In this document: positions 1 through 20,803 of the stretch, piece after piece | Numbering within the stretch: the stretch's first letter is position 1 | How the letters are laid out: every line of letters starts with the position of its first letter | Source of the DNA: an uncultured Oscillospiraceae bacterium | Lineage (GTDB): Bacteria; Bacillota; Clostridia; Oscillospirales; Oscillospiraceae | Assembly: GCA_947624465.1 (NCBI GenBank) | Contig: CANQKJ010000006.1 | Span: forward strand, 1 to 28,702 | Direction: 5' to 3' | Length of the DNA: 28,702 nucleotides | Position numbers and translations under genes: made by a program | The notes under the pieces: model-generated | The model's input: only the letters and a program-made list of their open reading frames with translations | Databases searched by the model: none | What the model was told of the DNA's origin: nothing

Positions 1-138
1 GCACCTGCTCAAAGGCACGGCCCGCCGCAAACATGGCGAAGCTGGAGGCGAAGGGCACCAGCCCCATGAAGGCCGCCCCGGCCGCCACCGCCGTAATGTT
101 CCCCTCGGCGATGCCGCAGTTGAAATGCCGGTCCGAAT
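1..138 (-). pseudogene. Transketolase C-terminal subunit, partial and 5'-truncated
   Basis: Read on the minus strand, this stretch encodes [12 protein letters not shown] followed by a glycine/alanine-rich run and [16 protein letters not shown], which is the GIAE and FAxFxxGRAxEQ signature of the pyrimidine-binding domain of transketolase (C-terminal half in split two-subunit enzymes). The family joins ThDP chemistry to two-carbon transfer in the pentose phosphate pathway. The similarity stops at about 138: upstream codons read HYSDR and then sequence without transketolase character, although this domain normally has over 60 residues before the GIAE motif. The rest runs off the left edge. I call it a fragment cut by a rearrangement; the family call is firm, the exact breakpoint is uncertain by about 15 bases. 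Confidence 0.7.
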
Positions 139-563
139 AATGTGGACTTATGCGTAGTCTACAAAACCTGCCGAGAGTTGCTAAGGGCTACGTCAGACCA
201 AGGCTCTCCCATTCTAACAGCTTTGGCAATGATACGGAAAAAGGCACGGCTGGCTGCCGTGCCCTTAACCGTAAATATACTGACTGTGATATCCATTGAC
301 AGCCTAGATGGAATGATCATACCCCCACCTGAGTGGGAAGATCGTCACCACAGAGCATATCGCGGAGATTGCAAAGGGCCGCGATTACCGGCCCGATTTT
401 AATCGCCAGAAAGGAATGTACGAGGCATGGCGAAAAGTTGTGTCCCTACAGTTCTTTTTTGCCCCATAAATAGATCACATATGGAGGAAGCAGAAAATGG
501 CCAGAAGGCAGATGCCCAGATGCGCCACATTTTTGCCTGACAGGGGCTGGGACAGTTCAGCCG
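139..563. other. Scar-like intergenic region without a convincing intact gene
   Basis: Between the truncated transketolase and the GH2 promoter I see no credible intact gene. An open stretch at 317-469 (plus strand) encodes LSGKIVTTEHIAEIAKGRDY and then FNRQKGMYEAWRKVV before a stop; its composition looks protein-like and it may be the C-terminal tail of a lost gene, but I cannot assign a family. The region also carries a minus-strand terminator (238-263). The most likely reading is a deletion scar at the border of an accessory region. Confidence 0.4.
238..263 (-). terminator. Rho-independent terminator, minus strand
   Basis: GGCACGGC at 243-250 pairs perfectly with GCCGTGCC at 256-263 around a 5-base loop. 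On the minus strand the stem is followed directly by five T residues (complement of 238-242). No intact minus-strand gene remains upstream of it, so it probably belonged to a gene lost from this border region. Confidence 0.6.
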
Positions 564-593
564 ATTGCGCGGTAAATCAACAAATTGCGCTGT
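564..593 (+). promoter_or_regulatory. Direct-repeat operator, predicted LytTR regulator site (copy 1)
   Basis: ATTGCGCGGT (564-573) and ATTGCGCTGT (584-593) are direct repeats with a 20-base period, five bases upstream of a -35-like element. Nearly the same arrangement occurs at 8594-8623. Paired direct repeats about two helical turns apart just upstream of -35 are typical of LytTR-family (AgrA/ComE-like) response regulator sites, and a LytTR regulator lies at 6584. Assignment to that regulator is inferred. Confidence 0.55.
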
Positions 594-598
594 TCCTA

Positions 599-627
599 TT
601 GTATAAAATCGCCCCATATAATATATT
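599..627 (+). promoter_or_regulatory. Promoter of the GH2/uronate operon
   Basis: TTGTAT (599-604) and TATATT (622-627) are separated by 17 bases. A TATAAT overlaps at 617-622, so the exact -10 hexamer is not certain. The element lies in an AT-rich island immediately after the direct-repeat operator, and the same spacing is kept at the second operator copy (-35 at 8629, -10 at 8652). Transcription would run about 180 bases before the GH2 start. Confidence 0.5.
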
Positions 628-696
628 TTAATTAACATATTAGTATATATTGGTGAGTTTATAAACACAGGCATTTCCTTGCACAAAACATTTGAG

Positions 697-727
697 CTGG
701 GGGCCAGTTCAAAATACTGGCTCCCAG
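697..727 (+). other. Leader hairpin before the GH2 gene
   Basis: CTGGGGGCCAGT pairs with ACTGGCTCCCAG with one mismatch (G opposite T), giving a stem of about 12 positions with a short AT-rich loop. It is not followed by a T-run, so it is unlikely to be a simple terminator. It lies in the untranslated leader and might stabilise the mRNA or mark a processing point. No function can be assigned from sequence alone. Confidence 0.4.
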
Positions 728-810
728 TAAACTTATTTAACATGTCGGTTGTTTTCCTGACGCACGGATATACGGGCATTTTTCTAACAAAGAGGGAAGG
801 AAACAGAACT

Positions 811-2733
811 TTGAGAAGAATGATCAAACTGAACGAGGGCTGGCAGTTCACCAGCCCTGACGGCAGCGAGCAGGCGGTAGACATCCCCCACACCTGGAAC
901 GCGGTGGACGGACAGGACGGCGGCAACGACTACTGGCGGGGCACCTGCCGCTACCGCAGAACTTTCCCCAGGCCGGACTTCGACCCCCAGGCCCAGCGGG
1001 TCTACCTGGAGTTCCGGGGGGTCAACGCCTCCGCCGCCGTCACCCTCAACGGCAGAGAGGTCATGACCCACGACGGTGGCTACTCCACCTTCCGGGCCGA
1101 CGTCACCGATGTGCTGGCGGACACCAACGACCTGTCCGTGGCGGTGGACAACTCCGTCAACGACCGGGTCTATCCCCAGAAGGCCGACTTTACCTTCTAC
1201 GGCGGCATCTACCGGGACGTGTGGCTCATCGTGGTGGATAAGGACCACTTCGACCTGGACTTCTGGGGCGGTCCGGGCATCAAGGTCACCCCCACCGTGT
1301 CCGGCAAAGACGGCACCGTCCGGGTGGAGACCTTCCACAACGCCGAGGGCGCCGGCGTGGCTGTCCGGCTGGTGGACGCAGAGGGCGCGGTGGCGGCCCG
1401 GGGCGAGGGGACCGACGTCACCCTCACCATCCCCAACGTCCATCTCTGGGACGGGGTGAAGGATCCCTACCTGTACTCCTGCGAGGCCGACCTCATCGTG
1501 GGCGGGCAGGCGGTGGATCAGATCAGCACCCCCTTCGGCGTGCGCTCCTTCCATGTGGATCCGGACAAGGGCTTCTTCCTCAACGGGCGCCCCTACCCCC
1601 TCCGCGGCGTCTCCCGCCACCAGGACTGGAAGGGCATCGGCAACGCCATCACCAAAGCGCACCACGACAAAGACATGGAGCTCATCCGGGAGATGGGGGT
1701 CAACACCATCCGCCTGGCCCACTACCAGCACGACCAGTATTTCTATGACCTCTGCGACAAATACGGCATGATCGTCTGGGCGGAGATCCCCTATATCTCG
1801 GAGCACATGCCCAACGGCCGGGAGAACACCATCACCCAGATGAAGGAGCTCATCGTCCAGAACTACAACCACCCCTCCATCGTCACCTGGGGCCTGTCCA
1901 ACGAGATCACCATCTCCACCAAGGACAAGGCCGACATGCTGGATAACCACCGTGTGCTGAACGACCTGGTACATCAGATGGATCCCACCCGGCCCACCAC
2001 CCTGGCCTGCTACGCCATGTGCGGGCTCTTCAACAAGGTGGCCCACATCAGCGACCTGGTGAGCTGGAACCTGTACCTGGGCTGGTATGTGCCGGGGCTG
2101 TTCCTCAACGACCTGTGGATCGACTTCTTCCACTGGAAGTACCCAAAGCGCCCTCTGGGCTACTCGGAGTACGGCTGCGAAGCCATGACCAACCTCCACT
2201 CCTCCCACCCGAAGCGGGAGGATCAGACGGAGGAGTACCAGTGCGTGTACCACGAGTACCTGCTGAACTGCTTCGCCAAGCGGCCCTTTATGTGGGCCAC
2301 CCATGTGTGGAACATGTTCGACTTCGCCGCCGACGCCCGGGACCAGGGCGGCGAGCCGGGGATGAACCACAAGGGACTGGTGACCTTCGACCGGAAGATC
2401 AAGAAGGACAGCTTCTATCTCTACAAGGCCTGGTGGAGCGAGGACCCCTTTGTCCACATCTGCTCCAAGCGGTACGCGGAGCGGAACGAGGCCACCACTG
2501 CCGTGAAGGTCTACTCCAACCGGAAGGCCGTGGCCCTGTACGCCAACGGGGAGAAGGTGGGCGAGCAGGCCGGCGAGCACGTGTTCACCTTCCGGGTGCC
2601 GCTCAGCGGCGAGGTGAAGCTGGAGGCCCGGAGCGGGGAGCTGACCGACGAGGCCGTCATCCGCTATGTGGACAGGCCCAACCCCGACTACATCCTGAAA
2701 AAGGGCGAGGGCAAGGGCCAGAACTGGGTATAA
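811..2733 (+). CDS. Glycoside hydrolase family 2, beta-glucuronidase-like
   Basis: The 640-residue protein has the GH2 order: jelly-roll sugar-binding domain, immunoglobulin-like domain and TIM barrel. GVSRHQD opens the barrel; the acid/base is predicted as E365 in GLSNEI and the nucleophile as E453 in YSEYGCE. MNHKGLV carries the NxK pattern that binds the glucuronate carboxylate in beta-glucuronidases, although some clostridial GH2 beta-galactosidases have similar NDKG sequences, so specificity is not proven. No signal peptide is seen, so it should act in the cytoplasm. I chose TTG 811 because AGGGAAGG ends 10 bases upstream; ATG 820 is the alternative, and an upstream in-frame ATG at 679 has no ribosome site. 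The symporter, uxuA and SDR downstream support glucuronide use. Confidence 0.85.
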   Translation: MRRMIKLNEGWQFTSPDGSEQAVDIPHTWNAVDGQDGGNDYWRGTCRYRRTFPRPDFDPQAQRVYLEFRGVNASAAVTLNGREVMTHDGGYSTFRADVTDVLADTNDLSVAVDNSVNDRVYPQKADFTFYGGIYRDVWLIVVDKDHFDLDFWGGPGIKVTPTVSGKDGTVRVETFHNAEGAGVAVRLVDAEGAVAARGEGTDVTLTIPNVHLWDGVKDPYLYSCEADLIVGGQAVDQISTPFGVRSFHVDPDKGFFLNGRPYPLRGVSRHQDWKGIGNAITKAHHDKDMELIREMGVNTIRLAHYQHDQYFYDLCDKYGMIVWAEIPYISEHMPNGRENTITQMKELIVQNYNHPSIVTWGLSNEITISTKDKADMLDNHRVLNDLVHQMDPTRPTTLACYAMCGLFNKVAHISDLVSWNLYLGWYVPGLFLNDLWIDFFHWKYPKRPLGYSEYGCEAMTNLHSSHPKREDQTEEYQCVYHEYLLNCFAKRPFMWATHVWNMFDFAADARDQGGEPGMNHKGLVTFDRKIKKDSFYLYKAWWSEDPFVHICSKRYAERNEATTAVKVYSNRKAVALYANGEKVGEQAGEHVFTFRVPLSGEVKLEARSGELTDEAVIRYVDRPNPDYILKKGEGKGQNWV

Positions 2734-2752
2734 GAGAGAGGGAGGAGTCAAG

Positions 2753-4372
2753 ATGGCAAACAACGAAAACCCGGCGGGCGCTGTGACCAACCGGGCAAAA
2801 ATGTATCAGCTGGCGCTGTTCCCCATGAACAACGGCGCCACCAACGTCTACTTTGTGCTGATCCTGGCCTATGTGGCCCAGTTCGGCGACAACATCCTGC
2901 ACCTGGGCATCTTCGCCTCGCTGATGGTCACCGTCATGCGGGTGTGCGACGCCGTCACCGACCCCATCATCGGCGCGATGATGGACCGCACCAGCACCCC
3001 CATCGGCAAGTTCCGTCCATTCATGATCATCGGCTCCGCCATCATGGCGGTGTCGGTCATCGCTCTTTACATCCTGACCCCCTTCATCCCGGAGAGCATG
3101 ATGTGGCTGCGCTATGTGGCCTTCGTGGTGATCTACTTCATCTGGGTTATCGGCTACACCTTCCAGACCTCGGTGACCCGCGCCGGCCAGACGGTGCTCA
3201 CCAACGACCCCAACCAGCGGCCCATGTTCACCATCTTCAACACCATCGGCTCCCTGCTGGGCATGGGCGTGATGCAGTTCCTCATCCCCCAGGTCAAGGC
3301 CGCGTTCGACGTGTATAAGGTGGACGCCGCGGGGAACTTCATCCTGGACGAGGCGGGGAAAAAGATCCTCGATGTCTCCGGGATCGCCAACCCCGTGGTG
3401 TGGCGCATCATCACCCCCGTGGGCATCGTCATCTCCGTGGCTCTCACCGCCCTGGCCATCATCGGCATCGCGGCCAAGGACAAGCCGGAGTTCTACGGCA
3501 TCGGCGGCGCCCAGGAGAAGGTGAAGCTCTCCGAGTACGTGGAGATCATCAAGAACAACAAGCCCATGCAGCGGCTGATGGTGGCCGGCGGCGGCTGCAA
3601 GCTGGCCCTGGCCATCGCCACCAATACCACGGTGCTGCTGGCGCTGTACGGCATCGTGATGGGCAATTACAACGCCCTGTACCTGCCCATGATGGTGCTG
3701 GGCTATGTGTGCGCGGTGCCGTTCTTCCTGCTGTCCATGCGGACCTCCCAGAAGAAGGGCCAGCGGGCCTCTCTGATCCGCTATGTCTCCGTGGCCCTGA
3801 TCTGCTATGTGGGCGTGCTGGCCCTGCTGCTGATCAACTCCCACGGCAATCCCGCGACTACCCTGTCCTTCCCGTTCAACGGCGGCGGCGCCATCAATCT
3901 GTACACCATCCTGTTCATCGTGTTCTTCGGCATCGGCTACGGCGCGTACTACGCCACGGCGGATATGCCCATCCCCATGGTGGCCGACTGTTCCGACTAC
4001 GAGACCTACCGCTCCGGCAAGTACATCCCCGGCATCATGGGGACGCTGTTCTCCCTGGTGGATAAGCTGGTGTCCTCCCTGGCCCAGTCACTGGTGGCCA
4101 TCATCTTCCTGATCGCCACCGGGGTGAACACGCTGCCCAACGACGCCACACCCTACTCCACCGGCATCAAGGTGGCGGTGATCGTCATGTTCTGCGTGAT
4201 CCCCATGATCGCCTGGGCGGCCACGCTGATCGCCATGAAGGGCTATTCCCTCACCGGCGAGAAGATGAAGGAGATCCAGGCTGTGAACGCCCAGCGGAAG
4301 GAAGCCGTGACCCAGGGCGCCAGCCTGGACGAGGCCATGAAGAAGTACCCCTGCACCCCGGACAAGCAGTAA
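2753..4372 (+). CDS. GPH-family sugar (glucuronide):cation symporter
   Basis: This 539-residue multi-spanning membrane protein has the hallmark GPH (glycoside-pentoside-hexuronide) motif DAVTDPIIGAMMDRT (from about residue 66) followed by GKFRP, the loop between helices 2 and 3. Hydrophobic segments continue to about residue 500, with a charged C-terminal tail ending in an EAMKKYPC sequence. It starts 19 bases after the GH2 stop with GGAGGAG ahead of ATG. It is longer than MelB/UidB-type members (about 460), due mainly to an extra loop near residues 180-210 (VYKVDAAGNF... region). Family membership is clear; transport of a glucuronide is inferred from the neighbours. Confidence 0.88.
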   Translation: MANNENPAGAVTNRAKMYQLALFPMNNGATNVYFVLILAYVAQFGDNILHLGIFASLMVTVMRVCDAVTDPIIGAMMDRTSTPIGKFRPFMIIGSAIMAVSVIALYILTPFIPESMMWLRYVAFVVIYFIWVIGYTFQTSVTRAGQTVLTNDPNQRPMFTIFNTIGSLLGMGVMQFLIPQVKAAFDVYKVDAAGNFILDEAGKKILDVSGIANPVVWRIITPVGIVISVALTALAIIGIAAKDKPEFYGIGGAQEKVKLSEYVEIIKNNKPMQRLMVAGGGCKLALAIATNTTVLLALYGIVMGNYNALYLPMMVLGYVCAVPFFLLSMRTSQKKGQRASLIRYVSVALICYVGVLALLLINSHGNPATTLSFPFNGGGAINLYTILFIVFFGIGYGAYYATADMPIPMVADCSDYETYRSGKYIPGIMGTLFSLVDKLVSSLAQSLVAIIFLIATGVNTLPNDATPYSTGIKVAVIVMFCVIPMIAWAATLIAMKGYSLTGEKMKEIQAVNAQRKEAVTQGASLDEAMKKYPCTPDKQ

Positions 4373-4381
4373 AGCAGATTC

Positions 4382-4419
4382 AAACGGCGCCGCCCCTCAC
4401 CGTGCGGCGGTGCCGTTTT
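4382..4419 (+). terminator. Intercistronic hairpin, weak terminator or attenuator
   Basis: AAACGGC/GCCGTTT (4382-4388 with 4412-4418) and GCCGC/GCGGC (4389-4393 with 4404-4408) form a 12-pair stem interrupted by a 3-base bulge, followed by only four T residues. It sits between the symporter and uxuA and could cause partial termination or protect the mRNA end, lowering or separating uxuA expression. Confidence 0.5.
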
Positions 4420-4450
4420 CAATCAGACCGAACGACAAGGAGGTATCACA

Positions 4451-5548
4451 ATGAAAATGACCTGGCGCTGGTACGGCGAAGGCAACGACCAGATCAAGCT
4501 GTCCGATATCCGGCAGATCCCCGGCGTGGAGGGGATCGTGTGGGCCCTCCACGACAAGATGCCCGGCGAGGTGTGGCAGCCGGAGGAGATCAAGGTGGTC
4601 GTGGATCAGATCAAGGCCGCCGGCTTCAACGCCGACGTGGTGGAATCGGTCAACGTCCACGACGACATCAAAATCGGCCTGCCCACCCGGGATCAGCACA
4701 TCGAGAACTACAAGCAGACCATCCGCAACCTGGCGCCCTTTGGGGTAAAGGTGATCTGTTACAACTTCATGCCCGTGTTTGACTGGACCCGCACCGACCT
4801 GTTCCACCCGGTGGGGGACGGCTCCACCGCGTTGTACTACGAGGCGTCCAAGATCCACGAAGATCCCAAGGAGATGGCAGATTACGTCATGTCCTTTACT
4901 GAGAAGTACCACATGACCTTCCCCGGCTGGGAGCCGGAGCGGATGGCCAGGCTGGACGAGTTGTTCAAGGCCTATGCCCCTGTCACCAAGGAGAAGCTGT
5001 GGGAGAACTTCAAGTACTTCCTGGAGGCGATCATGCCCACCTGCCGGGAGTGCGATATCAAGATGGCCGTCCATATGGACGATCCCCCGTGGGACATCTT
5101 CGGGCTGCCCCGCCTGCTGGTGAACGGGGAGGCCATCGACCGCTTCCTCAGCATGGTGGACGACCCGTATAACTGCCTGACGCTGTGCTCCGGCAGCCTG
5201 AACGCCGACCCCCACAACAACGTGGCCGACATCGTGCGCAAACACTGTGACCGTATCGCCTTCGCCCACATCCGCAACGTCAAGCACTTCCCCAACGGCG
5301 ACTTCTCCGAGGCCTCCCACCGGGACTGCGACGGCGACACCGGCATTCTGGACATCCTCAAGGCGTATCACGACTGCGGGTTTGACGGATATATCCGCCC
5401 GGATCACGGCCGCCATCTGTGGAACGAGGGCCCCGGCACCGTCCGGCCCGGGTACGGCCTGTATGACCGAGCCCTCGGCGTGATGTACATGATGGGCGTC
5501 TGGGATATGCTGGATAAACTTGACGGCGAGAAGGCCCAAAGCTGCTGA
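4451..5548 (+). CDS. uxuA: Mannonate dehydratase
   Basis: The protein (365 residues) converts D-mannonate to 2-keto-3-deoxygluconate in the hexuronate pathway. It opens with MTWRWYGEGND and keeps GVEGIVWALHD, both typical of UxuA. Candidate metal ligands are H208 (AVHMDD), C246 (LTLCSGS), H273 (FAHIRN) and D318 (RPDHG); their spacing closely matches the Mn-binding His-Cys-His-Asp set reported for streptococcal UxuA. Length fits the Gram-positive form. AAGGAGG lies 7 bases ahead of ATG. Its position directly before an SDR oxidoreductase and behind a GH2/symporter pair places it in a glucuronide catabolic operon. Confidence 0.95.
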   Translation: MKMTWRWYGEGNDQIKLSDIRQIPGVEGIVWALHDKMPGEVWQPEEIKVVVDQIKAAGFNADVVESVNVHDDIKIGLPTRDQHIENYKQTIRNLAPFGVKVICYNFMPVFDWTRTDLFHPVGDGSTALYYEASKIHEDPKEMADYVMSFTEKYHMTFPGWEPERMARLDELFKAYAPVTKEKLWENFKYFLEAIMPTCRECDIKMAVHMDDPPWDIFGLPRLLVNGEAIDRFLSMVDDPYNCLTLCSGSLNADPHNNVADIVRKHCDRIAFAHIRNVKHFPNGDFSEASHRDCDGDTGILDILKAYHDCGFDGYIRPDHGRHLWNEGPGTVRPGYGLYDRALGVMYMMGVWDMLDKLDGEKAQSC

Positions 5549-5566
5549 ACTAAGGAGGAAACCACT

Positions 5567-6421
5567 ATGGAAAAGAACGTTTTGAACACCGATCTGACCG
5601 GGAAAGTAGCCGTTGTCACCGGGGCGGGCGGCGTGCTGTGCTCCGCTTTCGCCAAGGTGCTGGCCCGGGCCGGCGCGAAAGTGGCCCTGCTGGACCTGAA
5701 CGAGAAGGCCGCCCAGGGCTTTGCCGACGAGATCGCTGCCGAGGGCGGTGTGGCAAAAGCCTACGCCTGCAACGTGCTGGACAAAGATGTGTGCTATGCC
5801 GTGGCCGACGCGGTGTGCTCCGACCTGGGTCCCTGCGACATCCTCATCAACGGAGCCGGCGGCAACAATCCCCGGGCCTCCACCGACAAGGAGTACTTCG
5901 AGGTGGGGGACATCGAGGCCGACACCAAGAGCTTCTTCGACCTGGATAAGAGCGGGGTGGAGTTCGTGTTTAACCTGAATTTCATCGGTACCCTGCTGCC
6001 CACCCAGGCCTTCGCCCGGCAGATGATCGGCCGGGCGGGCTGCAATATCCTGAACATCAGTTCCATGAACGCCTACACCCCTCTGACCAAGATCCCCGCC
6101 TACTCCGGGGCCAAGGCCGCCGTCAGCAACTTCACCCAGTGGCTGGCCGTCCATTTCTCCAAGGTGGGCATCCGGGTGAACGCCATCGCTCCCGGCTTCT
6201 TCTCCACCAAGCAGAACGCCGCCCTGCTGTTCAACCCCGACGGCACCCCCACCGCCCGCACGGGCAAGATCCTGGCCGCCACCCCCATGGGCCGCTTCGG
6301 CGACACCGAGAAGGAACTGGCCGGGGCGGTGCTGTTCCTGTTGAACAACGAGGCCGCCAGTTTCATCACCGGCGTGTGCATCCCCATCGACGGCGGTTTC
6401 TCCGCCTACTCCGGGGTGTGA
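5567..6421 (+). CDS. SDR oxidoreductase, probable fructuronate reductase (D-mannonate oxidoreductase)
   Basis: This is a 284-residue classical short-chain dehydrogenase. The Rossmann nucleotide motif is TGAGGVLCSA near residue 19, NGAGG stands for the NNAG motif, the catalytic Ser is in NISSMNAY, and Y179/K183 form YSGAK. The C-terminus has the usual IPIDGGFSAYSG ending. In Firmicutes, SDR proteins of this type next to uxuA reduce D-fructuronate to D-mannonate with NAD(P)H, replacing the unrelated UxuB fold of enterobacteria. TAAGGAGG precedes the ATG, 18 bases after uxuA, so the genes are coupled in one operon. Substrate is inferred from context. Confidence 0.87.
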   Translation: MEKNVLNTDLTGKVAVVTGAGGVLCSAFAKVLARAGAKVALLDLNEKAAQGFADEIAAEGGVAKAYACNVLDKDVCYAVADAVCSDLGPCDILINGAGGNNPRASTDKEYFEVGDIEADTKSFFDLDKSGVEFVFNLNFIGTLLPTQAFARQMIGRAGCNILNISSMNAYTPLTKIPAYSGAKAAVSNFTQWLAVHFSKVGIRVNAIAPGFFSTKQNAALLFNPDGTPTARTGKILAATPMGRFGDTEKELAGAVLFLLNNEAASFITGVCIPIDGGFSAYSGV

Positions 6422-6437
6422 GGAGGGCCTGCCATGG

Positions 6438-6509
6438 CGGAAGGAAGCTGTGGCCCAGGGCGCCAGCTTGGACGAGGCCATGTCCTCCATCACCGACGAA
6501 ACTATGTGA
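6438..6509 (+). pseudogene. Relic of a second GPH transporter C-terminus
   Basis: In frame from 6438 the DNA encodes RKEAVAQGASLDEAMSSITD and stops at 6507-6509. The first 15 residues match the symporter C-terminus (RKEAVTQGASLDEAM, about 4293-4340) at both DNA and protein level, with a different tail. It lacks everything upstream, so a duplicated or deleted paralogous transporter gene probably once stood here. The similarity starts within a few bases of the SDR stop region, marking a recombination joint. Confidence 0.65.
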
Positions 6510-6583
6510 TTAAACGCGCAAAGACTTTGAAAGCATGTCTGGTGTGAATGGACATGATAAGGGACGGAAAGGAGGGAAAGCGT

Positions 6584-7297
6584 ATGCTGAGGATCGGGAT
6601 ATTGGAGGATGAAAAGGCGCAGAGCGACAAATTGATCGGCTTCTTAGAGAGATATAAGTCAAAGCACAACGGCTTTTCCTATACGGCGAAGGTTTTTGAC
6701 ACAGGGAGTAAGCTGATTGGCAGCTATAAGCGGAATTTTGATCTGCTGTTTATGGATATTCGTCTGCCGGATATGCTTGGCATCGACGCCGCGCGGGAGA
6801 TACGAAAGTCGGATAAAAACGTGATGATTGTATTTGTGACAAACCTGGCGCAGTATGCCATAGACGGCTATGAAGTGAACGCCTTTGACTATATCCTTAA
6901 GCCGCTCATGTATGGTCCCTTTGAACCGAAGTTCACCCGGATCCTGAATGTCTTGTCCCGGACCAGTCCGGAAAAGTGGCTGACGTTGAAGACAAAACAG
7001 GAAACATTCCTGATCAAGATCGATTCCATCATCTATGTTGAGGTAAGCGGGCACGACTTGATCTTTCACACCGTCGAGAAAGAATATCGTGTCTGGGGAA
7101 CGCTGTCAAAAATCGAGCAGGATCTGAGTGGGGCGGCCTTTTCCCGCTGCAACGCCTGTTATCTCGTCAATCTCAGATATGTAGAACAAGTCAAGGGGTA
7201 TTTTGTCAAGGTGAGAGGACACGAGCTCAATATCAGCAGAAACCGCCGTAAGGATTTTTTGGAGGACCTTGCACGATACAAGGGAGGTAGTTTCTGA
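6584..7297 (+). CDS. LytTR-family response regulator
   Basis: The 237-residue protein has an N-terminal receiver domain: acidic pocket ILEDE, predicted phospho-acceptor D58 in FMDIRLPD, and K106 in ILKPL. A LytTR DNA-binding domain follows (about residues 130-235), with FLIKIDSIIYVEV, and FSRCNACYLVNLRYVE and NISRNRRKDF. Such AgrA-like regulators bind paired direct repeats and usually activate. ATG 6584 is preferred over ATG 6548 because AAAGGAGGG lies just upstream. The gene overlaps the kinase start by one base. Its likely operators are the direct repeats at 564-593 and 8594-8623. Confidence 0.93.
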   Translation: MLRIGILEDEKAQSDKLIGFLERYKSKHNGFSYTAKVFDTGSKLIGSYKRNFDLLFMDIRLPDMLGIDAAREIRKSDKNVMIVFVTNLAQYAIDGYEVNAFDYILKPLMYGPFEPKFTRILNVLSRTSPEKWLTLKTKQETFLIKIDSIIYVEVSGHDLIFHTVEKEYRVWGTLSKIEQDLSGAAFSRCNACYLVNLRYVEQVKGYFVKVRGHELNISRNRRKDFLEDLARYKGGSF

Positions 7298-8586
7298 TGT
7301 ATAACACGCCGGAATGGTATTCAAGTCTCAGAGATGTGGGGATGCTGTGGCAGGCATTAGGTGGGGTGACGATTTTTTGGACATCTCTGCCCAAAAGGGA
7401 CCATTCCCGCCTGCGCTCTGCGCTTTTCTGGATCCTGGGCGGCGGCCTGCTTTGGGTCTCACGACGCTTTGGCTGGCTTTTCCTGGAGAGCGGCACCAAT
7501 GTCTATCTTGTTTATTTTTTCTCCGTCATTTATGTCGTCGTGTGTTGCAAGTCCTCGGTCTGGGTAGCGCTGACGGTCGGATCAAGCGGGTTCCTTGCCC
7601 AACAGATCTGCGGCAGCCTGGAGCTTGCGCTGCGCAGTATCCCCGCGATAGGCGCCGCCTTTGATTATAGCAGCGCTATCGTTGTACTGGATATCGTCTT
7701 TTTCTCTGCCGGATATTATCTCATCTGGAGGGTATTTCACGGCAGAAGTTTAAGCGGGAATGAGAATATATCGGCTTTGCAGATGGGCAGTTTCTCGACG
7801 CTTGCCCTGATCTTCAGCCTCGGTTTTTATACGCTCAACCAATATGTCAGAGGCTGGGCCAGCCTGACCACCATTGAATTGACTGTAAACTCGTTTTATA
7901 ACGCCATCGGCAGTGTGCTCCTTCTCGTGATGCAGTATGAACTGATCAGGCAGCAGAGGCTGAATATCGAGCTCCAGGCCATGAGGGCGATACTGCGCAC
8001 CCAGGAGGACCAGTGGCGGCAGAGCAAAGAACGAACGGAACTGGTAAACGAAAAGTATCACGACCTCAAAAAAATCGTGAACAGTTTCCGCAGCGACCTT
8101 GACGCCGGGATGATTCAAAAACTGAACGAGGCAATTGAGGCATACGACGACAAGGTGGATACCGGCAACAGCGCAGCGGATGTGGTGCTCACGGAGGCAA
8201 GAGAGCTGTGCAGAGGACAGGGGATCCAGTTTACCTGTTATGTGAATGGGCCCGACCTGGACTTTATGGAGGACCTGGAAATTTACACATTTTTGAAAAA
8301 TGCCGTTGACAATGCCGTGGAGGCGGTCGAAAAGCTCCCAGAAGGCAAGGAGAGATTCATTTCCCTGACAGCACGGAGCGAAGATGGGATCATCATCCTG
8401 CATGAGGAAAATCCCTGCGGAGACGTCATCTTTGAAAACGGACTCCCAAAGACTCAGCAGGACTCCGATTACCACGGATTTGGCATGAAGAGCATGATGA
8501 GGATCGCCAATAAATACGGCGGTGCGCTTACTGCCAGCGCCAGAAATGGCATCTTCTATCTTGACGCCATTTTCATGCCGGAATAG
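7297..8586 (+). CDS. GHKL-domain sensor histidine kinase (AgrC-like)
   Basis: This 429-residue kinase starts with several hydrophobic helices (about residues 10-210), then a coiled-coil dimerisation segment with KYHDLKK (H255 as likely phospho-acceptor), and a GHKL ATPase domain: N-box FLKNAVDNAVEA (N335, N339) and G-box GFGMKSM near residue 393. The layout matches AgrC/VirS-type sensors (HPK10) that detect peptides or other ligands in the membrane. No peptide pheromone gene is visible next to it, so the signal may be a substrate-derived molecule. Its ATG shares one base with the regulator stop (TGATG-like overlap), indicating translational coupling. Confidence 0.92.
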   Translation: MYNTPEWYSSLRDVGMLWQALGGVTIFWTSLPKRDHSRLRSALFWILGGGLLWVSRRFGWLFLESGTNVYLVYFFSVIYVVVCCKSSVWVALTVGSSGFLAQQICGSLELALRSIPAIGAAFDYSSAIVVLDIVFFSAGYYLIWRVFHGRSLSGNENISALQMGSFSTLALIFSLGFYTLNQYVRGWASLTTIELTVNSFYNAIGSVLLLVMQYELIRQQRLNIELQAMRAILRTQEDQWRQSKERTELVNEKYHDLKKIVNSFRSDLDAGMIQKLNEAIEAYDDKVDTGNSAADVVLTEARELCRGQGIQFTCYVNGPDLDFMEDLEIYTFLKNAVDNAVEAVEKLPEGKERFISLTARSEDGIIILHEENPCGDVIFENGLPKTQQDSDYHGFGMKSMMRIANKYGGALTASARNGIFYLDAIFMPE

Positions 8587-8593
8587 AGTGCTA

Positions 8594-8623
8594 TTTACGC
8601 GGTTAAACCACAAATTACGCTGT
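8594..8623 (+). promoter_or_regulatory. Direct-repeat operator, predicted LytTR regulator site (copy 2)
   Basis: TTTACGCGGT (8594-8603) and ATTACGCTGT (8614-8623) repeat with a 20-base period, as at 564-593; the spacer ACAAATT segment is also conserved. It lies directly after the kinase stop and five bases before a -35-like element, so the two-component system is predicted to drive the esterase/GH3 genes that follow. Confidence 0.55.
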
Positions 8624-8650
8624 TTCCGTTGTGCGGGAACAGCGTTTTTT
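8616..8650 (+). terminator. Rho-independent terminator of the two-component operon, overlapping the next promoter
   Basis: ACGCTGTTTCCG (8617-8628) pairs with CGGGAACAGCGT (8634-8645) with one T-G wobble around the loop TTGTG, followed by a T-run (8645-8650). The stem's left arm is also the second operator half-site and the loop contains the -35 hexamer, so termination and downstream initiation share the same bases. Confidence 0.75.
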
Positions 8651-8657
8651 GTATATT
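8629..8657 (+). promoter_or_regulatory. Promoter of the first esterase lipoprotein
   Basis: TTGTGC (8629-8634) and TATATT (8652-8657) have a 17-base spacer. The -35 and -10 positions relative to the direct repeats are identical to those before the GH2 operon, and the bases after the -10 (TTTTC/A AAT) are also similar. The poor -35 fits activator dependence. Confidence 0.5.
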
Positions 8658-8721
8658 TTCAATAACAGGCTTTCGGGCCTATATCATGAGGAAACGGAAA
8701 AGAGAAAAAGGAGGGTATTAC

Positions 8722-9777
8722 ATGAAAAAAGCTGCGATTTCTTTTGGGCTGGCGCTCTGTCTGCTGGCGTGCTGCATCGGCCTTTCTGGGTGCAGCGCCG
8801 GGAGTCAGAAGCCTAGTGAAACGCCGTCTCATACCCACAATTTCGTGAATGGAGTATGCCCGGAGGACGGCGTCTATGAGACAGACTTTATCCTGAGAGG
8901 GCGCGTTTCAGAGGAATTGAAGACGGCTCCCGCCAATGTCGGTACAATTGAGGAGATCACCTATACGACGCGGTCCTATTATCTTGAATCTTTGCCCGAA
9001 AACGAAGGGAAAGAGATCGAGCTGACAAAAACCGCCGAGGTATACCTCCCCTACGGATACGACGCCTCCCAGAAATACAATGTGATGTATCTCCTGCACG
9101 GCACAGGCGAGGATGAGAAGTGCTGGCTGACCTTCAAAGGCAAGGATGTCATCAATGTTCTGGAAAACATGGTGGCACAGCATCTCTGCGAGCCGGTCAT
9201 CATTGTCACGCCCACCTGGTACTCTCCTGAAACGCCTTATACAACGCAGAAGGAGTACAATGCCGACCCCGATCCCGACGGCTGGACGAGCAAGTTTGCG
9301 GCCGAATTGAGAAATGATTTGATCCCTGCGGTGGAGGGAAAGTATTCCACTTATGCGGAAGGTGACACGTCCAGCGCCAAGTTGACCGAGACCCGGGATC
9401 ACCGCGCGTTCTGCGGCGTCTCCCGCGGCAGCATGACGGTTATGAAATCCGGCCTTATGCAGAATCTGGACTATATCGCCAACTTTGGCAACTTCTCCGG
9501 CGTTTGGACAGAGGTGAGCGAACTGAAGGAGGCGTTGACGTCCCCCGATTATGCCTCCTATGACATCAACTTCTGGTATAACGGCACCGGCGATGCCGAC
9601 ACTGTGGGCGGAGCGAACGAGTCTCACGTGGCATTCTACAAGAGCGCGATGGAGGAACTCCCCGGCAAGTTCACTGACGGCATGAATTCCGTTATGATCT
9701 ACAAAAAGTCGTCCGGGCACGATTATAACGCCTGGTTGGCGGATTTCTACAACGCGATGTTGAAATTCTATCAGTGA
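8722..9777 (+). CDS. Secreted esterase-like lipoprotein 1 (CE1/esterase D fold)
   Basis: The 351-residue protein has a lipoprotein signal peptide with lipobox LSGC, so it should be anchored outside the membrane. The mature part is an alpha/beta-hydrolase of the PF00756 esterase type (feruloyl/acetyl-xylan esterase, tributyrin esterase): VYLPYGYD, LLHGTGED (oxyanion region), nucleophile S234 in GVSRGS and catalytic H333 in SGHDY. It contains a short spacer with THNFVNGVCPEDG after the lipobox. ATG 8722 is chosen because AAAGGAGGG precedes it; longer forms lack this. It is paralogous to the genes at 13665 and 14738 (shared TRDHRAF and Y/VSRG blocks). The substrate is unknown; removal of acyl or feruloyl groups from a plant polymer is plausible. 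Confidence 0.85.
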   Translation: MKKAAISFGLALCLLACCIGLSGCSAGSQKPSETPSHTHNFVNGVCPEDGVYETDFILRGRVSEELKTAPANVGTIEEITYTTRSYYLESLPENEGKEIELTKTAEVYLPYGYDASQKYNVMYLLHGTGEDEKCWLTFKGKDVINVLENMVAQHLCEPVIIVTPTWYSPETPYTTQKEYNADPDPDGWTSKFAAELRNDLIPAVEGKYSTYAEGDTSSAKLTETRDHRAFCGVSRGSMTVMKSGLMQNLDYIANFGNFSGVWTEVSELKEALTSPDYASYDINFWYNGTGDADTVGGANESHVAFYKSAMEELPGKFTDGMNSVMIYKKSSGHDYNAWLADFYNAMLKFYQ

Positions 9778-9793: not shown

Positions 9794-12700
9794 GTGAAGA
9801 AAAAACTGTCGAAATTATGGCTTTCTCTTCTGTGCATTACCCTGTGTCTGGCGATCCTGCTGACTGTCGGCGTGTTCGTGGAAAAGCGGTTCCAGGATAC
9901 GATAAACTGGGCGCTGGGCATCAAGGAGACGACCACCACCGGCACCGGTGCCGTGCTGTTTTCCTCGGAGTTCACCAAAAAAGACGCCGCCGGGAACGTT
10001 CTGCTGAATGAAGCGGGCAGGGAGGTCTATGATGACGAGGCTCTGATGCAGGAGGGCGACAGAGTCTGCAAGGAAGTCGCCAAAGAGGGCATTGTCCTGC
10101 TGAAAAACAGTAATGCCGCGCTGCCGCTGGAACCGAACGCCTCTGTCGCCCTGTTCGGCACGGCGTCCAAGTCGGTGGTGACCTCCGGTACGGGTTCCGG
10201 TCAGACCGGCGGCAACGGCGCCACGTTTGCCTCTGCCCTAAAAGAATCCGGCTTCAATCTGAATGAGGCGAGCCAGGAGTTTTACAAAAACGGGGCGGGC
10301 AAGGACTATAACAGTTCCGTCCCCCCCATGACCGGAACGGAGCCCTTTACCATCGGCGAGGTCCCCTGGGATGTCTTTTCCTCCGACGCCTCCTTTGCGG
10401 AGATGACGAAGTGCGATGTGGCCGTCGTCGTGTTCGCGAGAAATTCGGGCGAGGGCTATGATATCTGCTCCGGTGTCTCCAAAGTCGGCCCCGAGGACAA
10501 AGAGATCATCTGCACTGACGCTCTGACAAAAGAGGAAGGCAGCAAGACCGGCAACAACTATCTGGAACTGAACAAGGCGGAAAGAGACCTTTTGAAAGGC
10601 CTGAAGGCGCTGAAAGACGAGGGCAAGATCAAGAAGATTGTCGTCCTGCTGAATACCAGCAACGCTATGCAGATCGACTTTTTGAGCGACGCGGTTGACG
10701 ACGTCTACGGCGTTGACGCGGCTCTGTGGATCGGCGCGACCGGCCAGTCCGGCGTCGAGGTCATCGGAGATATTTTGAACGGCACAGTCAATCCCTCCGG
10801 CAAGCTGGCGGATACGTACTGCTACGATATCCTCCGGGAACCCTCCATCTATAACTTTGGCACCAATGTCTATGGTCAGTGGACGGAGGGCGGTTATGCC
10901 GCGAAATCCGCGCAGGAGTCGGAGGACGCCAACCTCTGCCAGAAGTTCTATAACGTTTATCGTGAAGGCATTTATGTCGGTTACCGTTACTATGAGACTC
11001 GCTACGAGGACTATGTCCTTGGCAACACGGACAGCTTTGCCTATTCCGATATCGTGGCCCGCTCCTTTGGCGAGGGCCTGTCTTATACCCAGTTTGAGTA
11101 TTCAGGGTTCCAGGTGGCTGAAGAGGACGGCCGGTTCCAGGTGACGGTCACGGTCAAGAACGCCGGTGAGGCCGCCGGCAAGGAAGTCGTCCAGGTGTAT
11201 GCCCAGACGCCCTATTCGCAGTACGCCCAGGACAACGGGATCGAAAAGGCGTCGGTCCAATTGGTGGGCTTTGAGAAGACGGATCTGCTCCAGCCCGGTG
11301 ACTCTCAGACAGTGACGGTTTCTTTTGAGAAGCGCCAGCTGGCCACCTACGACGCTGTGACCGCAAAGACCTATATCATGGATGACGGCGATTATTACAT
11401 CACAGTCGCCGAGGGCGCGCACGATGCGGTGAACCACATCCTGACAGAGAAGCAGGCGGACAAGTCCAAAATAGTGCTGTCAAAGACGACATACAACACG
11501 AATGAGAGCCTGGTCTATAAATTCGTGCAGGATACGGTGGATACCACCACCTATGCGACTTCCGCTGAGACGGGCGCCGCGATCACCAATCACTTCGACG
11601 AAGCCGACATCAACTTGTTTGATAATGGTTCCCAGACCGTCAGCTATGTGACTCGCAAGGACTGGAGGGGATCCTTTGACGATACGTCTATCGAGACCAT
11701 GCTTCAGAGCAAAGTCGCGCTCGATATAAATGACGCCATCTATCAGGGCTTAGTCAACGAACAGTTTACAAAGCCTGAGGATGCCTCGCAGGCGAAAATG
11801 CCCACTATGAAGGCGGAGAACGGGCTGGTTCTGGCTGACTTTGTGGGAGTTGATCGCGACGGCACCATAGAAAAGTACAATAAAACGTGGACCTTTGAAG
11901 ATCTGCTCGATCAGATGTCTTTTGCTGAGATGCGGAGCCTGGTGCTGCTGGGGCAGCACAACACGAAGAGCGTTCCGTCTATTGCAAAGCCTGCTACCAG
12001 CGACCAGAACGGTCCCTGCGGATTCGCCTCTACCTTTGTCTCCGGCGGCGCGGGCACCGCGTTCCCCAGTTCGACGCTGAGAGCGACCACATGGAATAAA
12101 GCGGTAGCGCACAGGGTCGGCGAAATCATCGGCGAAGACGGCTTGCACTCCGGCTCTAACGGCCTGTACGGCCCTGGCGCCAATATCCACAGAAATGCGT
12201 TCTGCGGGAGAAACTATGAGTATTATTCTGAAGATCCGGTCCTGTCCTCCCAGATCGGGACCGAGGAGTGCGTCGGGATCCAGTCAAAGGGCGTCATTGT
12301 TTACGAGAAGCACTTTGCTCTGAACGATTCCGAGTCCCACCGTGAGGGCGTCGGCAACTGGGCCAATGAGCAGGCCATTCGCGAGATCTATCTGGAGGCG
12401 TTCAAGGGCATCCTCTCCAAGGACGGAGGCAATGCCCATGCCATTATGACGGGCTTTAACCGCCTTGGTACGACGTGGACGGGTGACAGTGTCGATCTGA
12501 TCGAGGGGGTTGCCCGAGGCGAATGGGGATTCGACGGATTTTCCTGCACGGATATGGATAACGGACCTACCGCATATATGTATGCGCCCCGCGCTATTTG
12601 CACGGGCACCGATATCTACGACGGCCCCGATAACCCATCCCATCCCAGAACGCCGCAGCTCAACGAGTATAAGGATGACGCCTATGTTGTCACCTGCATG

Positions 12701-12922
12701 AGAGAGTCCGCCGCGAGGATTATCTATGCCGTCGGCCAGTCCTCTGCGATGAATGGGATCGGATCCGATACGAAAATCGTGTCGGTCATGCCCTGGTATC
12801 TGGTACTGACGATTACTCTGGCCGCCGTTATGGGCGTTCTGGCCATTAGTTCCGCGGTCATGCTGGTGCTGGATAAGAAGGGGATCCTTCCCGTATCAAA
12901 AAAACGTAAAAAAACGGAATAA
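9794..12922 (+). CDS. Membrane-anchored GH3 glycosidase with inverted domain order
   Basis: In this 1042-residue protein the usual GH3 C-terminal domain comes first (AKEGIVLLKN, residues about 75-390), followed by a fibronectin-III-like domain (about 445-530, with LVGFEK and QTVTVSF), a linker, and then the catalytic TIM-barrel domain (about 690-980). In the barrel, K839-H840 of EKHFAL bind substrate and D920 in SCTDMDN is the predicted nucleophile. Inverted GH3 enzymes are known from rumen Firmicutes. A hydrophobic helix at residues 7-30 and another at about 995-1020 followed by KKRKK suggest anchoring at both ends, with the enzyme outside. GTG 9794 follows GGAGTGG and lies 16 bases after the esterase stop. 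Activity could be beta-glucosidase or beta-xylosidase. Confidence 0.88.
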   Translation: MKKKLSKLWLSLLCITLCLAILLTVGVFVEKRFQDTINWALGIKETTTTGTGAVLFSSEFTKKDAAGNVLLNEAGREVYDDEALMQEGDRVCKEVAKEGIVLLKNSNAALPLEPNASVALFGTASKSVVTSGTGSGQTGGNGATFASALKESGFNLNEASQEFYKNGAGKDYNSSVPPMTGTEPFTIGEVPWDVFSSDASFAEMTKCDVAVVVFARNSGEGYDICSGVSKVGPEDKEIICTDALTKEEGSKTGNNYLELNKAERDLLKGLKALKDEGKIKKIVVLLNTSNAMQIDFLSDAVDDVYGVDAALWIGATGQSGVEVIGDILNGTVNPSGKLADTYCYDILREPSIYNFGTNVYGQWTEGGYAAKSAQESEDANLCQKFYNVYREGIYVGYRYYETRYEDYVLGNTDSFAYSDIVARSFGEGLSYTQFEYSGFQVAEEDGRFQVTVTVKNAGEAAGKEVVQVYAQTPYSQYAQDNGIEKASVQLVGFEKTDLLQPGDSQTVTVSFEKRQLATYDAVTAKTYIMDDGDYYITVAEGAHDAVNHILTEKQADKSKIVLSKTTYNTNESLVYKFVQDTVDTTTYATSAETGAAITNHFDEADINLFDNGSQTVSYVTRKDWRGSFDDTSIETMLQSKVALDINDAIYQGLVNEQFTKPEDASQAKMPTMKAENGLVLADFVGVDRDGTIEKYNKTWTFEDLLDQMSFAEMRSLVLLGQHNTKSVPSIAKPATSDQNGPCGFASTFVSGGAGTAFPSSTLRATTWNKAVAHRVGEIIGEDGLHSGSNGLYGPGANIHRNAFCGRNYEYYSEDPVLSSQIGTEECVGIQSKGVIVYEKHFALNDSESHREGVGNWANEQAIREIYLEAFKGILSKDGGNAHAIMTGFNRLGTTWTGDSVDLIEGVARGEWGFDGFSCTDMDNGPTAYMYAPRAICTGTDIYDGPDNPSHPRTPQLNEYKDDAYVVTCMRESAARIIYAVGQSSAMNGIGSDTKIVSVMPWYLVLTITLAAVMGVLAISSAVMLVLDKKGILPVSKKRKKTE

Positions 12923-13029: not shown

Positions 13030-13506
13030 ATGAAAAAGTATAAGATTTTTGCCCTGATCGCTGCCATGGCTTTCTGCTTTGTCGCTCTGGCTGGGTGCCA
13101 GGCGAAGACGCCCGATGTACAGACCTATACCCGCTCCTATGCCTATTATGAGGATGGCCGCCAGGGCGATGTGATTGACGGTGTGGTCTGCGACCTGACT
13201 TTCGTCTCCGATAAGGAATATCTCTACACCGAGACGACTGTTATCGCGCACATCGACGCCGGCATCCAGGTGACCAACTGGACTTATACCCTGCGGGGCA
13301 CCTACACAGTCGGCACAGTCGATGAAGATGAAATGACCAAGGAGATCACCCTTTCCGCTCCCGTCAGCGGGGCCAAGGTGATGAACGGGGCTCTGACTAC
13401 GGCGGAAGAGGACCCGGAGATCCTGTCTTACCAATTCCCCCTGAATGTTGTGATCAACTATTCCGCCAACACCTTCGTTGATCCCGCCGAGACCCCTGCG
13501 GGCTGA
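13030..13506 (+). CDS. Small lipoprotein of unknown function
   Basis: The 158-residue protein has a clear lipoprotein signal (KKYKIFALIAAMAF, lipobox LAGC) and a mature domain rich in alternating beta-strand patterns with many Tyr/Thr residues. I recognise no family. ATG 13030 is preferred because AAAGGAAAA lies 8 or so bases upstream, whereas ATG 13012 has no ribosome site. It stands between the GH3 gene and two esterase lipoproteins and is followed by a strong terminator, so it may be the last gene of the first transcription unit. A substrate-binding or chaperone-like role at the cell surface is only a guess. Confidence 0.75.
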   Translation: MKKYKIFALIAAMAFCFVALAGCQAKTPDVQTYTRSYAYYEDGRQGDVIDGVVCDLTFVSDKEYLYTETTVIAHIDAGIQVTNWTYTLRGTYTVGTVDEDEMTKEITLSAPVSGAKVMNGALTTAEEDPEILSYQFPLNVVINYSANTFVDPAETPAG

Positions 13507-13576: not shown

Positions 13577-13607
13577 AAAAAGGGCAAATCGAGTGTTTGC
13601 CCTTTTT
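13577..13607 (+). terminator. Rho-independent terminator after the small lipoprotein
   Basis: AAAAAGGGCAAA (13577-13588) pairs with TTTGCCCTTTTT (13596-13607) around a 7-base loop, giving a perfect stem with a T-run. It separates the GH3/lipoprotein unit from the esterase pair downstream; the A-rich left arm means it may work in both directions. Confidence 0.85.
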
Positions 13608-13621
13608 GATTTTCTACGGGT

Positions 13622-13640
13622 CCCCGATGCTCCGTCGGGG
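13622..13640 (+). other. Short hairpin just before an esterase ribosome site
   Basis: CCCCGA (13622-13627) pairs with TCGGGG (13635-13640), loop of 7 bases. It ends about 10 bases before the GGAGG of the gene at 13665. It may protect a processed 5' end or affect initiation; no regulatory family is recognised. Confidence 0.35.
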
Positions 13641-13664
13641 CAGAAACCAGGAGGAAAAAACAAT

Positions 13665-14687: not shown

Positions 14688-14737
14688 TCCGGGCTGCAAA
14701 GGGATCATATGATAAAACTTGTAAAGGAGATGGAGTT

Positions 14738-15844: not shown

Positions 15845-16165
15845 CGATGCCCTTTCTACATGGGTATTCTGCAACTGCGCACGTGCGGCATGTTCGACAT
15901 TAGAACGATTGGAGTCAGCTGCTCCTCGGATAGTTTTATTCTCCTCCTTTCCAAATGGCAAGGACCGGGTCTTCCGACCCGGCCCTTGCCGCACTACATG
16001 ATCGGGAACGAATCGCTTCCTGTGTATCTCCAAGAGTGGGGCTTTATGATACTCTTCCTTTTCTGAGACTAGTATAGACCTGCTGAAGGCCAAATGACTG
16101 TGTCAGCAGGGTCCTCATCCTTTTGGCGTCGACAAAGATATTAACCAAATCCAGCGAAGGCTTTT
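15845..16165. other. Intergenic region with two strong hairpins
   Basis: No credible gene is seen. The stem 15957-15970 with 15977-15990 (GGCAAGGACCGGGT, one mismatch, 6-base loop) is strong but lacks a T-run; it may still end esterase transcription or protect the 3' end. A second inverted repeat, CCTGCTGA (16079-16086) with TCAGCAGG (16103-16110), lies just upstream of the repeated element end. Confidence 0.45.
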
Positions 16166-16322
16166 TGACCCTTATTTGTACCCTTACCGCAGCGGGATCG
16201 GCCAACACCACTTAACAAATAATAAAATGTGAATTGTTTACAAGGCCGCTTTTTTCAACGAGCCAGGGATTTGGCGGCACGAATAGACAACAGGTAAAAT
16301 ATGTATTTTGCAATTCAAATCC
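16166..16322 (+). repeat. Mobile-element end, copy A (junction with galT)
   Basis: This segment matches 18571-18727 along its whole length with scattered differences (shared blocks: TGACCCTTATTTGTACCCTT, GGATCGGCCAACACCACTT, ATTTGGCGGCACGAA, CAGGTAAAAT, TTGCAATTC). It starts with two ACCCTTA units 5 bases apart, which look like integrase arm sites. The match ends at TTCAAATCC (16314-16322), where galT begins. The pattern is that of an integrated element's end with its recombination core. Confidence 0.65.
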
Positions 16323-18511: not shown

Positions 18512-18570
18512 AGGCAGCTTTGGCCTGTACAACAGAGATGTGCAGAAAAGAATGGCTTTAGGTGGTTGTC

Positions 18571-20544: not shown

Positions 20545-20560
20545 AGCGGTCGCCTCCTTC

Positions 20561-20602: not shown

Positions 20603-20678
20603 AAAACGCAGAGTTAGTAAACTGTTATCATTTGTTTGTGGATGACGATGTGCCATTTTTCATTGCCTGGGGCCGCAG

Positions 20679-20791: not shown

Positions 20792-20803
20792 TGGGGTCCC
20801 TGC

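Follow-up and report, generated by a model that had tools for sequence, protein, structure and literature searches.

The 28,702-nucleotide contig CANQKJ010000006.1 of an uncultured Oscillospiraceae bacterium (analysed here in full and called the window) carries two copies of one predicted operator-promoter: site 1 (560-627) ahead of a glucuronide operon and site 2 (8590-8657) ahead of genes for surface esterases and a glycoside hydrolase of family 3 (GH3). The genes of a LytTR response regulator and a GHKL sensor histidine kinase lie between them. Most likely, the shared operator-promoter marks a LytTR regulon that joins the surface esterase/GH3 genes to glucuronide use. Judging from the sequence, we hold it quite probable that the window represents one LytTR/GHKL two-component regulon with two operator-promoters. 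Gut bacterial glucuronidases free drugs and hormones from their conjugates, and to our knowledge the induction of these enzymes in Clostridia has been little studied. The window is the complete contig C6 of a 2.09 Mb assembly that has 278 contigs and is 78% complete.

Two putative LytTR-type operators of identical layout

At both sites, two direct 9-bp half-sites with a repeat period of 20 are followed by a 10-bp gap, a -35 element, a 17-bp spacer and a TATATT -10 element (Table 1). A preliminary description of the window had reported repeats with a 20-base period at equal spacing from TTGTxx and TATATT elements, and this is correct: the period is 20 and all spacings are identical. It had also placed the two sites in otherwise unrelated DNA, which agrees with our counts: the sites are identical at 31/43 positions across the operator stretch (561-603 of site 1), while their flanks agree at 13/60 positions in the 60 bp upstream and at 16/60 in the 60 bp from position 633. 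By eye, agreement also starts at the -10 element and runs onward (TATATTTTnAnTAACA, 14/16 bases). The further statement that the sites flank the two-component system was only partly apt; its genes do lie between them, but the stretch they bracket is the whole of GH2-GPH-UxuA-SDR-LytTR-GHKL.

In the streptococcal LytTR promoters of HdrRM and BrsRM, as far as the available part of their description goes, 9-mer direct repeats are mostly 12 bp apart with a minority at 11 or 13 bp, the distance from repeat to -35 is 4-11 bp in Streptococcus mutans with a strong bias to 10 bp elsewhere, and autoregulation is positive (PMC6193735). With an 11-bp gap and 10 bp to the -35, sites 1 and 2 fit this published layout, by which we regard them as putative LytTR-type operators (PMC6193735).

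Occurrence of the sites in the genome and its relatives

The preliminary description had proposed a motif search across this genome and related ones. In the own genome, a degenerate 31-mer allowing up to three mismatches matched sites 1 and 2 only in 2.09 Mb, each without a mismatch and with no near misses, and the reversed pattern had no match. A 15-mer, ACAAATTRCGCTGTT, allowing up to two mismatches, found in the same genome, besides the two sites, only the reverse arm of the hairpin at site 2; its reversed pattern had one match. For the related genomes the outcome was divided. The same architecture stands before glucuronidase orthologues, as described below, while the exact operator sequence of the window has no match in the 41 other genomes of the genus or the 399 other genomes of the family that were searched.

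We also applied a mechanical rule (two 9-mers matching at 7 or more of 9 positions at a period of 20 or 21, then 9-11 bp, a -35, 16-18 bp and a -10) to the 28.7 kb window, and it picked exactly sites 1 and 2, with none on the other strand. When bases 1-811 were block-shuffled, 42 of 4000 trials contained a site by this rule; for bases 8587-8722 it was 2 of 4000. Scored on the repeats alone, site 2 exceeds shuffles (p 0.01). A scan for repeats alike at 13 of 15 positions was over-stringent, missing even sites 1 and 2.

LytTR-type repeats ahead of glucuronidase orthologues

A search of 400 family genomes with the GH2 enzyme gave matches at E up to 1e-150 in 58 of them, and the 18 best places besides the window's own were taken as orthologue loci. 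Upstream of GH2, 13 of the 18 have a LytTR-GHKL pair (including L081, which shows the kinase alone at a contig edge, and L076, where the pair lies about 7 kb upstream with intervening genes), and the usual gene order is LytTR-GHKL-GH2-GH3-GPH. According to the preliminary description, absence of the repeats upstream of orthologous genes that stay linked would have counted against a shared regulon. LytTR-type tandem repeats occur directly upstream of GH2 in 16/18 loci by eye and in 12/18 by the mechanical rule, so the architecture is there, although the operator sequence of the window itself is not. The repeats are of an ACCACTT type before 14 of the orthologues and of a GCAGTTT type in L091 and L092, which have no adjacent regulator; in L076, repeats are at the operon head and not directly before GH2.

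The period of these repeats is consistent. Among 18 regions upstream of GH2 (17 orthologues without L076, plus the window), 13 reach at least 9/12 at a period of 21, and 0-3 do so at the other periods from 12 to 33; taken singly, 11/18 exceed shuffles at p 0.05. Region starts were set by hand from the ends of homology (L078 was moved by 46 bases), L026, L027 and L039 were omitted, and L076 was placed in a separate post-kinase set of 15 regions. Across 35 sequences totalling 561 kb (the window, 16 regulator loci and 18 GH2 loci), the mechanical rule found 24 forward sites, compared with 0-2 in five block-shuffle sets and 13 unmerged rows on the reverse strand.

The half-sites of the window differ from those of the orthologues. 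In the available part of the streptococcal work, the BrsR half-site ACCACTTAT nearly equals the ACCACTTAC type found before glucuronidase orthologues (PMC6193735); it is the ACCACTT type before 14 GH2 orthologues that resembles BrsR's, and the window half-sites diverge. In nine genomes of genus g21, the operator of that genus's glucuronidase loci (GCAGTTTACGCGGT type) occurs once each in G220 and G342 and not in the other seven, so no two-site regulon was found among the nine. We found no description of LytTR control of glucuronidase loci in the open-licence literature, as judged by title and the start of the abstract.

Two of the orthologue loci have features of their own. L075 (G030) perhaps records one more regulator exchange at a glucuronidase operon. 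In L087 (G386, another genus), the SDR gene is 92.6% identical to that of the window and the adjoining UxuA gene 45%, which points to a mosaic operon history.

LytTR systems beside GH3 genes

LytTR systems next to GH3 genes are common in the genus. In 15 genus genomes (those past a 95% completeness filter, the own genome included), a LytTR domain is found within 8 kb of 75 of the 138 GH3_C matches (9.9 expected), and conversely 65 of 145 LytTR domains have a GH3 match no more than 8 kb away; these counts use 138 of 139 GH3 matches, the second fragment of one gene having been dropped. The linkage as such was already known in 2010 from Butyrivibrio proteoclasticus, where three LytTR regulators are each near a secreted GH3 enzyme with a C-terminal transmembrane helix, according to the portion of that genome paper at hand (PMC2914790). 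The preliminary description had called carbohydrate control an unusual job for such a regulator, and this does not hold in this lineage, given both the frequency of the GH3 linkage there and the Butyrivibrio case as partly available to us (PMC2914790).

For a wider sample, we took all 60 non-own LytTR loci near GH3 and a random pick of 40 of the 78 non-own loci far from GH3, of which 56/60 and 26/40, respectively, have a kinase-like frame with enough sequence. Within 200 bp after the kinase gene, period-21 repeats (at least 9/12) occur in 20/56 near loci and 1/26 far loci; at the other periods tested in near loci (14-29), the counts are 0-12. By the mechanical rule there are 14 forward sites in 11/60 near loci and one site in 1/40 far loci, with 0 and 2 in the respective shuffles. 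Eight of the 14 near forward sites are at positions 4136-4273, that is, at the end of the kinase gene.

Some of these loci also have two operators, as the window does. In L030 and L031 both are found by the mechanical rule, and in L041 and L044 the second is found by the rule and the first by eye. Five of these eight sites precede a called lipoprotein frame, and two such frames are alpha/beta hydrolases. One regulator with two operators in a single locus therefore has parallels; the window differs in that one of its operators stands before a glucuronide operon.

A predicted terminator merged with the site 2 promoter

Folding of the site 1 stretch gave no hairpin. At site 2 there is a hairpin of 13 pairs (-25.5 kcal/mol, z -6.6), which with its T-run has the form of an intrinsic terminator, termination itself being predicted. 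The preliminary description does not mention this hairpin, which is built from the promoter: its 5' arm is formed by the 10-bp gap, its loop lies under the -35, its 3' arm and the T-run make up the 17-bp spacer, and the -10 comes next.

In a first set of 14 regions, five show this fusion, namely the window, L032 (the same place as L151), L042, L044 and L025. In the wider sample it was found by rule in 7/20 terminator-bearing near regions (of 56), 0/5 far ones (of 26) and 0/67 background hairpins, the rule being a single one of our own with a minimum of 8 pairs for background hairpins and 6 for regions. Five of the seven near cases (L148, L149, L150, L152 and L154) represent a single element in nearly identical copies. 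By eye only, the fusion is also seen, with weaker -10 elements, in L028 and L041. A literature search on promoter-terminator overlap gave a single paper, which has another subject as judged by its title and the start of its abstract.

A broader proposal, whose chances we judge to be even, is that in GH3-linked LytTR-GHKL systems the operon terminator is built from the next promoter (gap, -35 and spacer serving as arm, loop, and arm plus T-run), so that about 60 bp would both end the regulator transcript and start the target under the same regulator, and that in the window a hairpin-free copy of this promoter took the glucuronide operon away from another LytTR clade, with a joint switch of regulator and operator. 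Transcription from so compact a terminator-promoter element can be tested in vitro.

Regulator class and origin of the regulator block

The response regulator has a receiver domain (PF00072) and a LytTR domain (PF04397), and the adjoining kinase has a GHKL ATPase domain (PF14501). The preliminary description had called the regulator AgrA-like. Against the NCBIfam models it scores 46.5 bits for AgrA (cut-off 400) and 75.9 bits for LytR (cut-off 375), and we rejected membership of both. We likewise rejected a LytTR Regulatory System, in which the partner is a membrane inhibitor, because the partner here has the GHKL ATPase domain.

A search for related loci with the regulator returned two remote ones only, at 27 and 29% identity. 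The own genome has seven LytTR matches; five other regulators are 37-41% identical over most of the protein, one of them with an in-frame stop. In a tree of 28 regulators, the window regulator groups with 11 others (support 99/98), 10 of which are near GH3; the exception is L039, which is included under the GH3 label in the tree and has no GH3 match in the 20 kb fetched. Of the 12 regulators of glucuronidase operons, 11 form a separate clade (99/98); the twelfth, L076, is isolated on a long branch. The tree omits L026, for which no protein was extracted, the L078 row is shortened by a frame change, and L025 has a long branch like L076. The window regulator thus belongs to a different LytTR clade from the regulators of glucuronidase operons.

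Codon composition also delimits a block. The GC content at third codon positions (GC3) is 0.89-0.93 in GH2-SDR and in GalT, and 0.62-0.72 from LytTR to Est3, and at the junction lies a 46-bp remnant of a transporter gene end that is 93% identical to the resident transporter. Given the different LytTR clade and the low GC3 of the block, the operon seems to have exchanged regulator and operator jointly. The simplest story seems to be that a lower-GC block of regulator, esterase and GH3 genes was added to a resident glucuronide operon, which then fell under the operator of that block instead of the older LytTR clade serving it elsewhere. The SDR-regulator junction could equally stem from a chimaeric contig.

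Proposed regulon and its alternatives

We propose that the kinase senses a ligand that a decorated (ester-linked, glucuronidated) substrate carries or releases, and that the phosphorylated LytTR protein would bind the paired half-sites 10 bp upstream of a weak -35 and recruit RNA polymerase. Site 1 would drive GH2-GPH-UxuA-SDR and then, by read-through, the regulator's own genes, making a positive loop. This transcript would stop at hairpin 8617-8645, whose loop holds the -35 and whose T-run adjoins the -10 of site 2, and at site 2 the same regulator would drive the surface genes Est1-GH3-lipoprotein-Est2-Est3. The regulator genes are probably part of the site 1 transcript, since on the + strand no terminator-like signal is listed between 2283 and 8617 and no promoter-like site is listed in 1-8365, although the same promoter scan also misses sites 1 and 2. 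The weak promoter-like sites that it does list inside the kinase gene, at 8365 and 8561, are part of a total no higher than in shuffles.

A single regulon uniting surface processing with glucuronide use had been put forward in the preliminary description. It is favored by the LytTR-type layout at both promoters and the regulator genes between them, while the absence of the exact operator sequence from all relatives searched weighs against it, as do several other observations. Among the 42 genus and 400 family genomes searched, none yielded a regulator orthologue with more than 53% identity. The glucuronidase locus closest to the window's, L075 (same genus, 87%), lacks such repeats upstream and has an apparent divergent AraC-type regulator (by eye). 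The site 1 repeats, by score alone, do not exceed shuffles (p 0.13). The read-through to the regulator genes depends on absent signals, in a scan that misses both sites and lists 8365 and 8561. At scale, the strict scan has modest power: near loci have 14 forward sites and 8 reverse, and far loci 1 and 9 (the reverse counts not de-duplicated). Taken by itself, the overall surplus is thus only modest, and more weight falls on the concentration of sites just behind the kinase gene. Lastly, the genome assembly is fragmented and 78% complete.

The alternative that survives best, which we nevertheless consider unlikely, is that site 1 is a relic, copied in front of GH2 with the incoming block and now unused, the operon being under another promoter in its 180-nucleotide leader or another regulator. 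The leader (140-810), at 0.453 GC, shares the AT-richness of the block and adjoins an apparently broken gene at the contig start (by eye), and L075 in the same genus has an unrelated arrangement. Against this, the upstream and spacer sequences have fully diverged while the -35, the -10, the half-sites and their spacings are preserved, a pattern that fits selection, and LytTR-type repeats precede glucuronidase operons elsewhere. Fainter still is the case for another LytTR protein of the genome using the two sites, or for cross-regulation by several. The other LytTR regulators of the genome described above could supply such a user, but the sites are found solely around this two-component system, and paralogous locus L024 has different repeats, GCAGTTTG at 20/21 bp. 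Finally, we reject as barely credible that chance, together with ordinary promoter composition, accounts for the likeness of sites 1 and 2: short repeats in two copies are often accidental, a single half-repeat 14-mer (up to three mismatches) has 7 matches in the window vs 3.3 expected, which is not significant, and the site 1 repeats alone score as noted, but the zero-mismatch 31-mer pair is unique in the genome, the spacings are equal, and the same architecture stands ahead of orthologous genes.

The shared LytTR regulon that we prefer would mean that LytTR-GHKL systems, best known for quorum sensing and virulence, recurrently serve as local regulators at glucuronide and GH3 loci, and that their operator is readable. 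What appears to be new here is the LytTR-type operators ahead of glucuronidase operons, the apparent joint change of regulator and operator, and the fused terminator-promoter. Together these yield a regulon open to direct testing, a motif rule usable in scans, and a candidate case of regulator and operator replacement.

Comparison with known systems

HdrRM and BrsRM, in the part of their description available, have a membrane inhibitor partner and bacteriocin and competence targets, whereas the window combines a receiver-LytTR protein with a GHKL kinase, predicted carbohydrate targets and a period of 20 (PMC6193735). Butyrivibrio proteoclasticus, like the window, links a LytTR regulator to an extracellular GH3 enzyme with a C-terminal membrane segment; the account at hand contains no operator, glucuronide operon or shared regulon (PMC2914790). 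The Roseburia Gram-positive polysaccharide utilization locus Ros-7 has ABC and GPH transporters, a response regulator with a LytTR domain and a histidine kinase, and so has in common with the window GH genes, a transporter and a LytTR two-component system in a single locus. It differs in its predicted substrate, arabinoxylan, and no operator is described for it in the part of the source at hand (PMC5320581).

The window protein is far under the AgrA cut-off. AgrC is a GHKL kinase with a peptide signal, so the AgrA/AgrC pair is like the window in joining a LytTR response regulator to such a kinase and unlike it in serving peptide quorum sensing. Staphylococcal AgrA promoters also have direct repeats upstream, and their spacers, in the portion of the source at hand, are 18 and 20 bp (PMC4227749).

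Gene content of the window

Table 1. Positions of the two sites and of the genes between and behind them.
Feature	Position	Strand	Remarks
Site 1 operator	560-588	+	two 9-bp direct half-sites 11 bp apart: 560-568 GCCGATTGC and 580-588 ACAAATTGC
Site 1 promoter	599-627	+	-35 TTGTAT 599-604, 17-bp spacer, -10 TATATT 622-627; no hairpin
GH2 beta-glucuronidase-like enzyme	811-2733	+	start TTG 811 or ATG 820, from where most orthologues begin aligning; listed open reading frame opens at 679
GPH-family (MFS_2) glycoside/hexuronide symporter	2753-4372	+	
UxuA mannonate dehydratase	4451-5548	+	
SDR-type mannonate oxidoreductase	5567-6421	+	
Remnant of the GPH transporter gene 3' end	6437-6482	+	93% identical to 4294-4339; junction of glucuronide genes and regulator block
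Response regulator, receiver and LytTR DNA-binding domain	6584-7297	+	open reading frame opens at 6548; start ATG 6584 judged from relatives
GHKL sensor histidine kinase	7297-8586	+	N-terminal half with two hydrophobic segments above threshold
Site 2 operator	8590-8618	+	two 9-bp direct half-sites 11 bp apart: 8590-8598 GCTATTTAC and 8610-8618 ACAAATTAC
Predicted intrinsic terminator of the upstream (regulator's) operon	8617-8651	+	stem-loop 8617-8645, then T-run; merged with the site 2 promoter
Site 2 -35	8629-8634	+	TTGTGC, over the hairpin loop
Site 2 -10	8652-8657	+	TATATT, abutting the T-run
Est1, lipoprotein esterase	8722-9777	+	nearest solved relatives are CE1 feruloyl esterases
GH3 enzyme	9794-12922	+	domain order C-Fn3-N; hydrophobic segment at each end
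Small lipoprotein	13030-13506	+	no Pfam family; 31% relative beside GH3 in paralogous locus L027 of the own genome
Est2, lipoprotein esterase	13593-14687	+	
Est3, lipoprotein esterase	14684-15844	+	

The GH2 enzyme matches PF02836, PF02837 and PF00703. Its score against the NCBIfam equivalog for beta-glucuronidase LacZ4 is 563 bits, below the cut-off of 950. NxK is the glucuronate motif of beta-glucuronidases, and it is kept in the window enzyme as NHK, with GMNHKGL aligned with 6mvg. The nearest solved chains are 6mvg and 6mvh; these two and 6mvf, which we take to be FMN-binding beta-glucuronidases of gut bacteria, have the fold in common with the window enzyme over about 640 residues, and its alignments with 6mvg and 6mvh show NxK. 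The sequence of the window enzyme stops together with the alignment to 6mvg (residue 675 of 777), and the remainder of 6mvg has no counterpart in it. In the 180-nucleotide leader of GH2 there is a stable 13-pair hairpin at 696-728 without a proper T-run, and an Rfam scan of the window gave no match. Among the surface genes, Est1, Est2, Est3 and the small lipoprotein have lipobox-type signal peptides (by eye).

The contig begins within an apparent transketolase C-terminal gene on the minus strand (1-138, by eye), which ends abruptly near 139; the 46-residue piece there has no Pfam match. Behind the surface genes, a 173-bp direct repeat (16159-16331 and 18564-18736, 82% identical) has one of its copies where the GalT gene starts and the other about 1 kb behind GalT. 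A mobile element lies near the operon (19025-22934), with a tyrosine integrase (19025-20239) and a MobA/VirD2-type relaxase (21975-22934), both on the minus strand. Further along are a minus-strand gene for a protein with a HipA-like C-terminal domain (23704-25038) and a gene for a 969-residue protein of the TOTE conflict-system type (25143-28052), with AEP-TOTE primase, ResIII/DEAD helicase and weak PLD-like matches.

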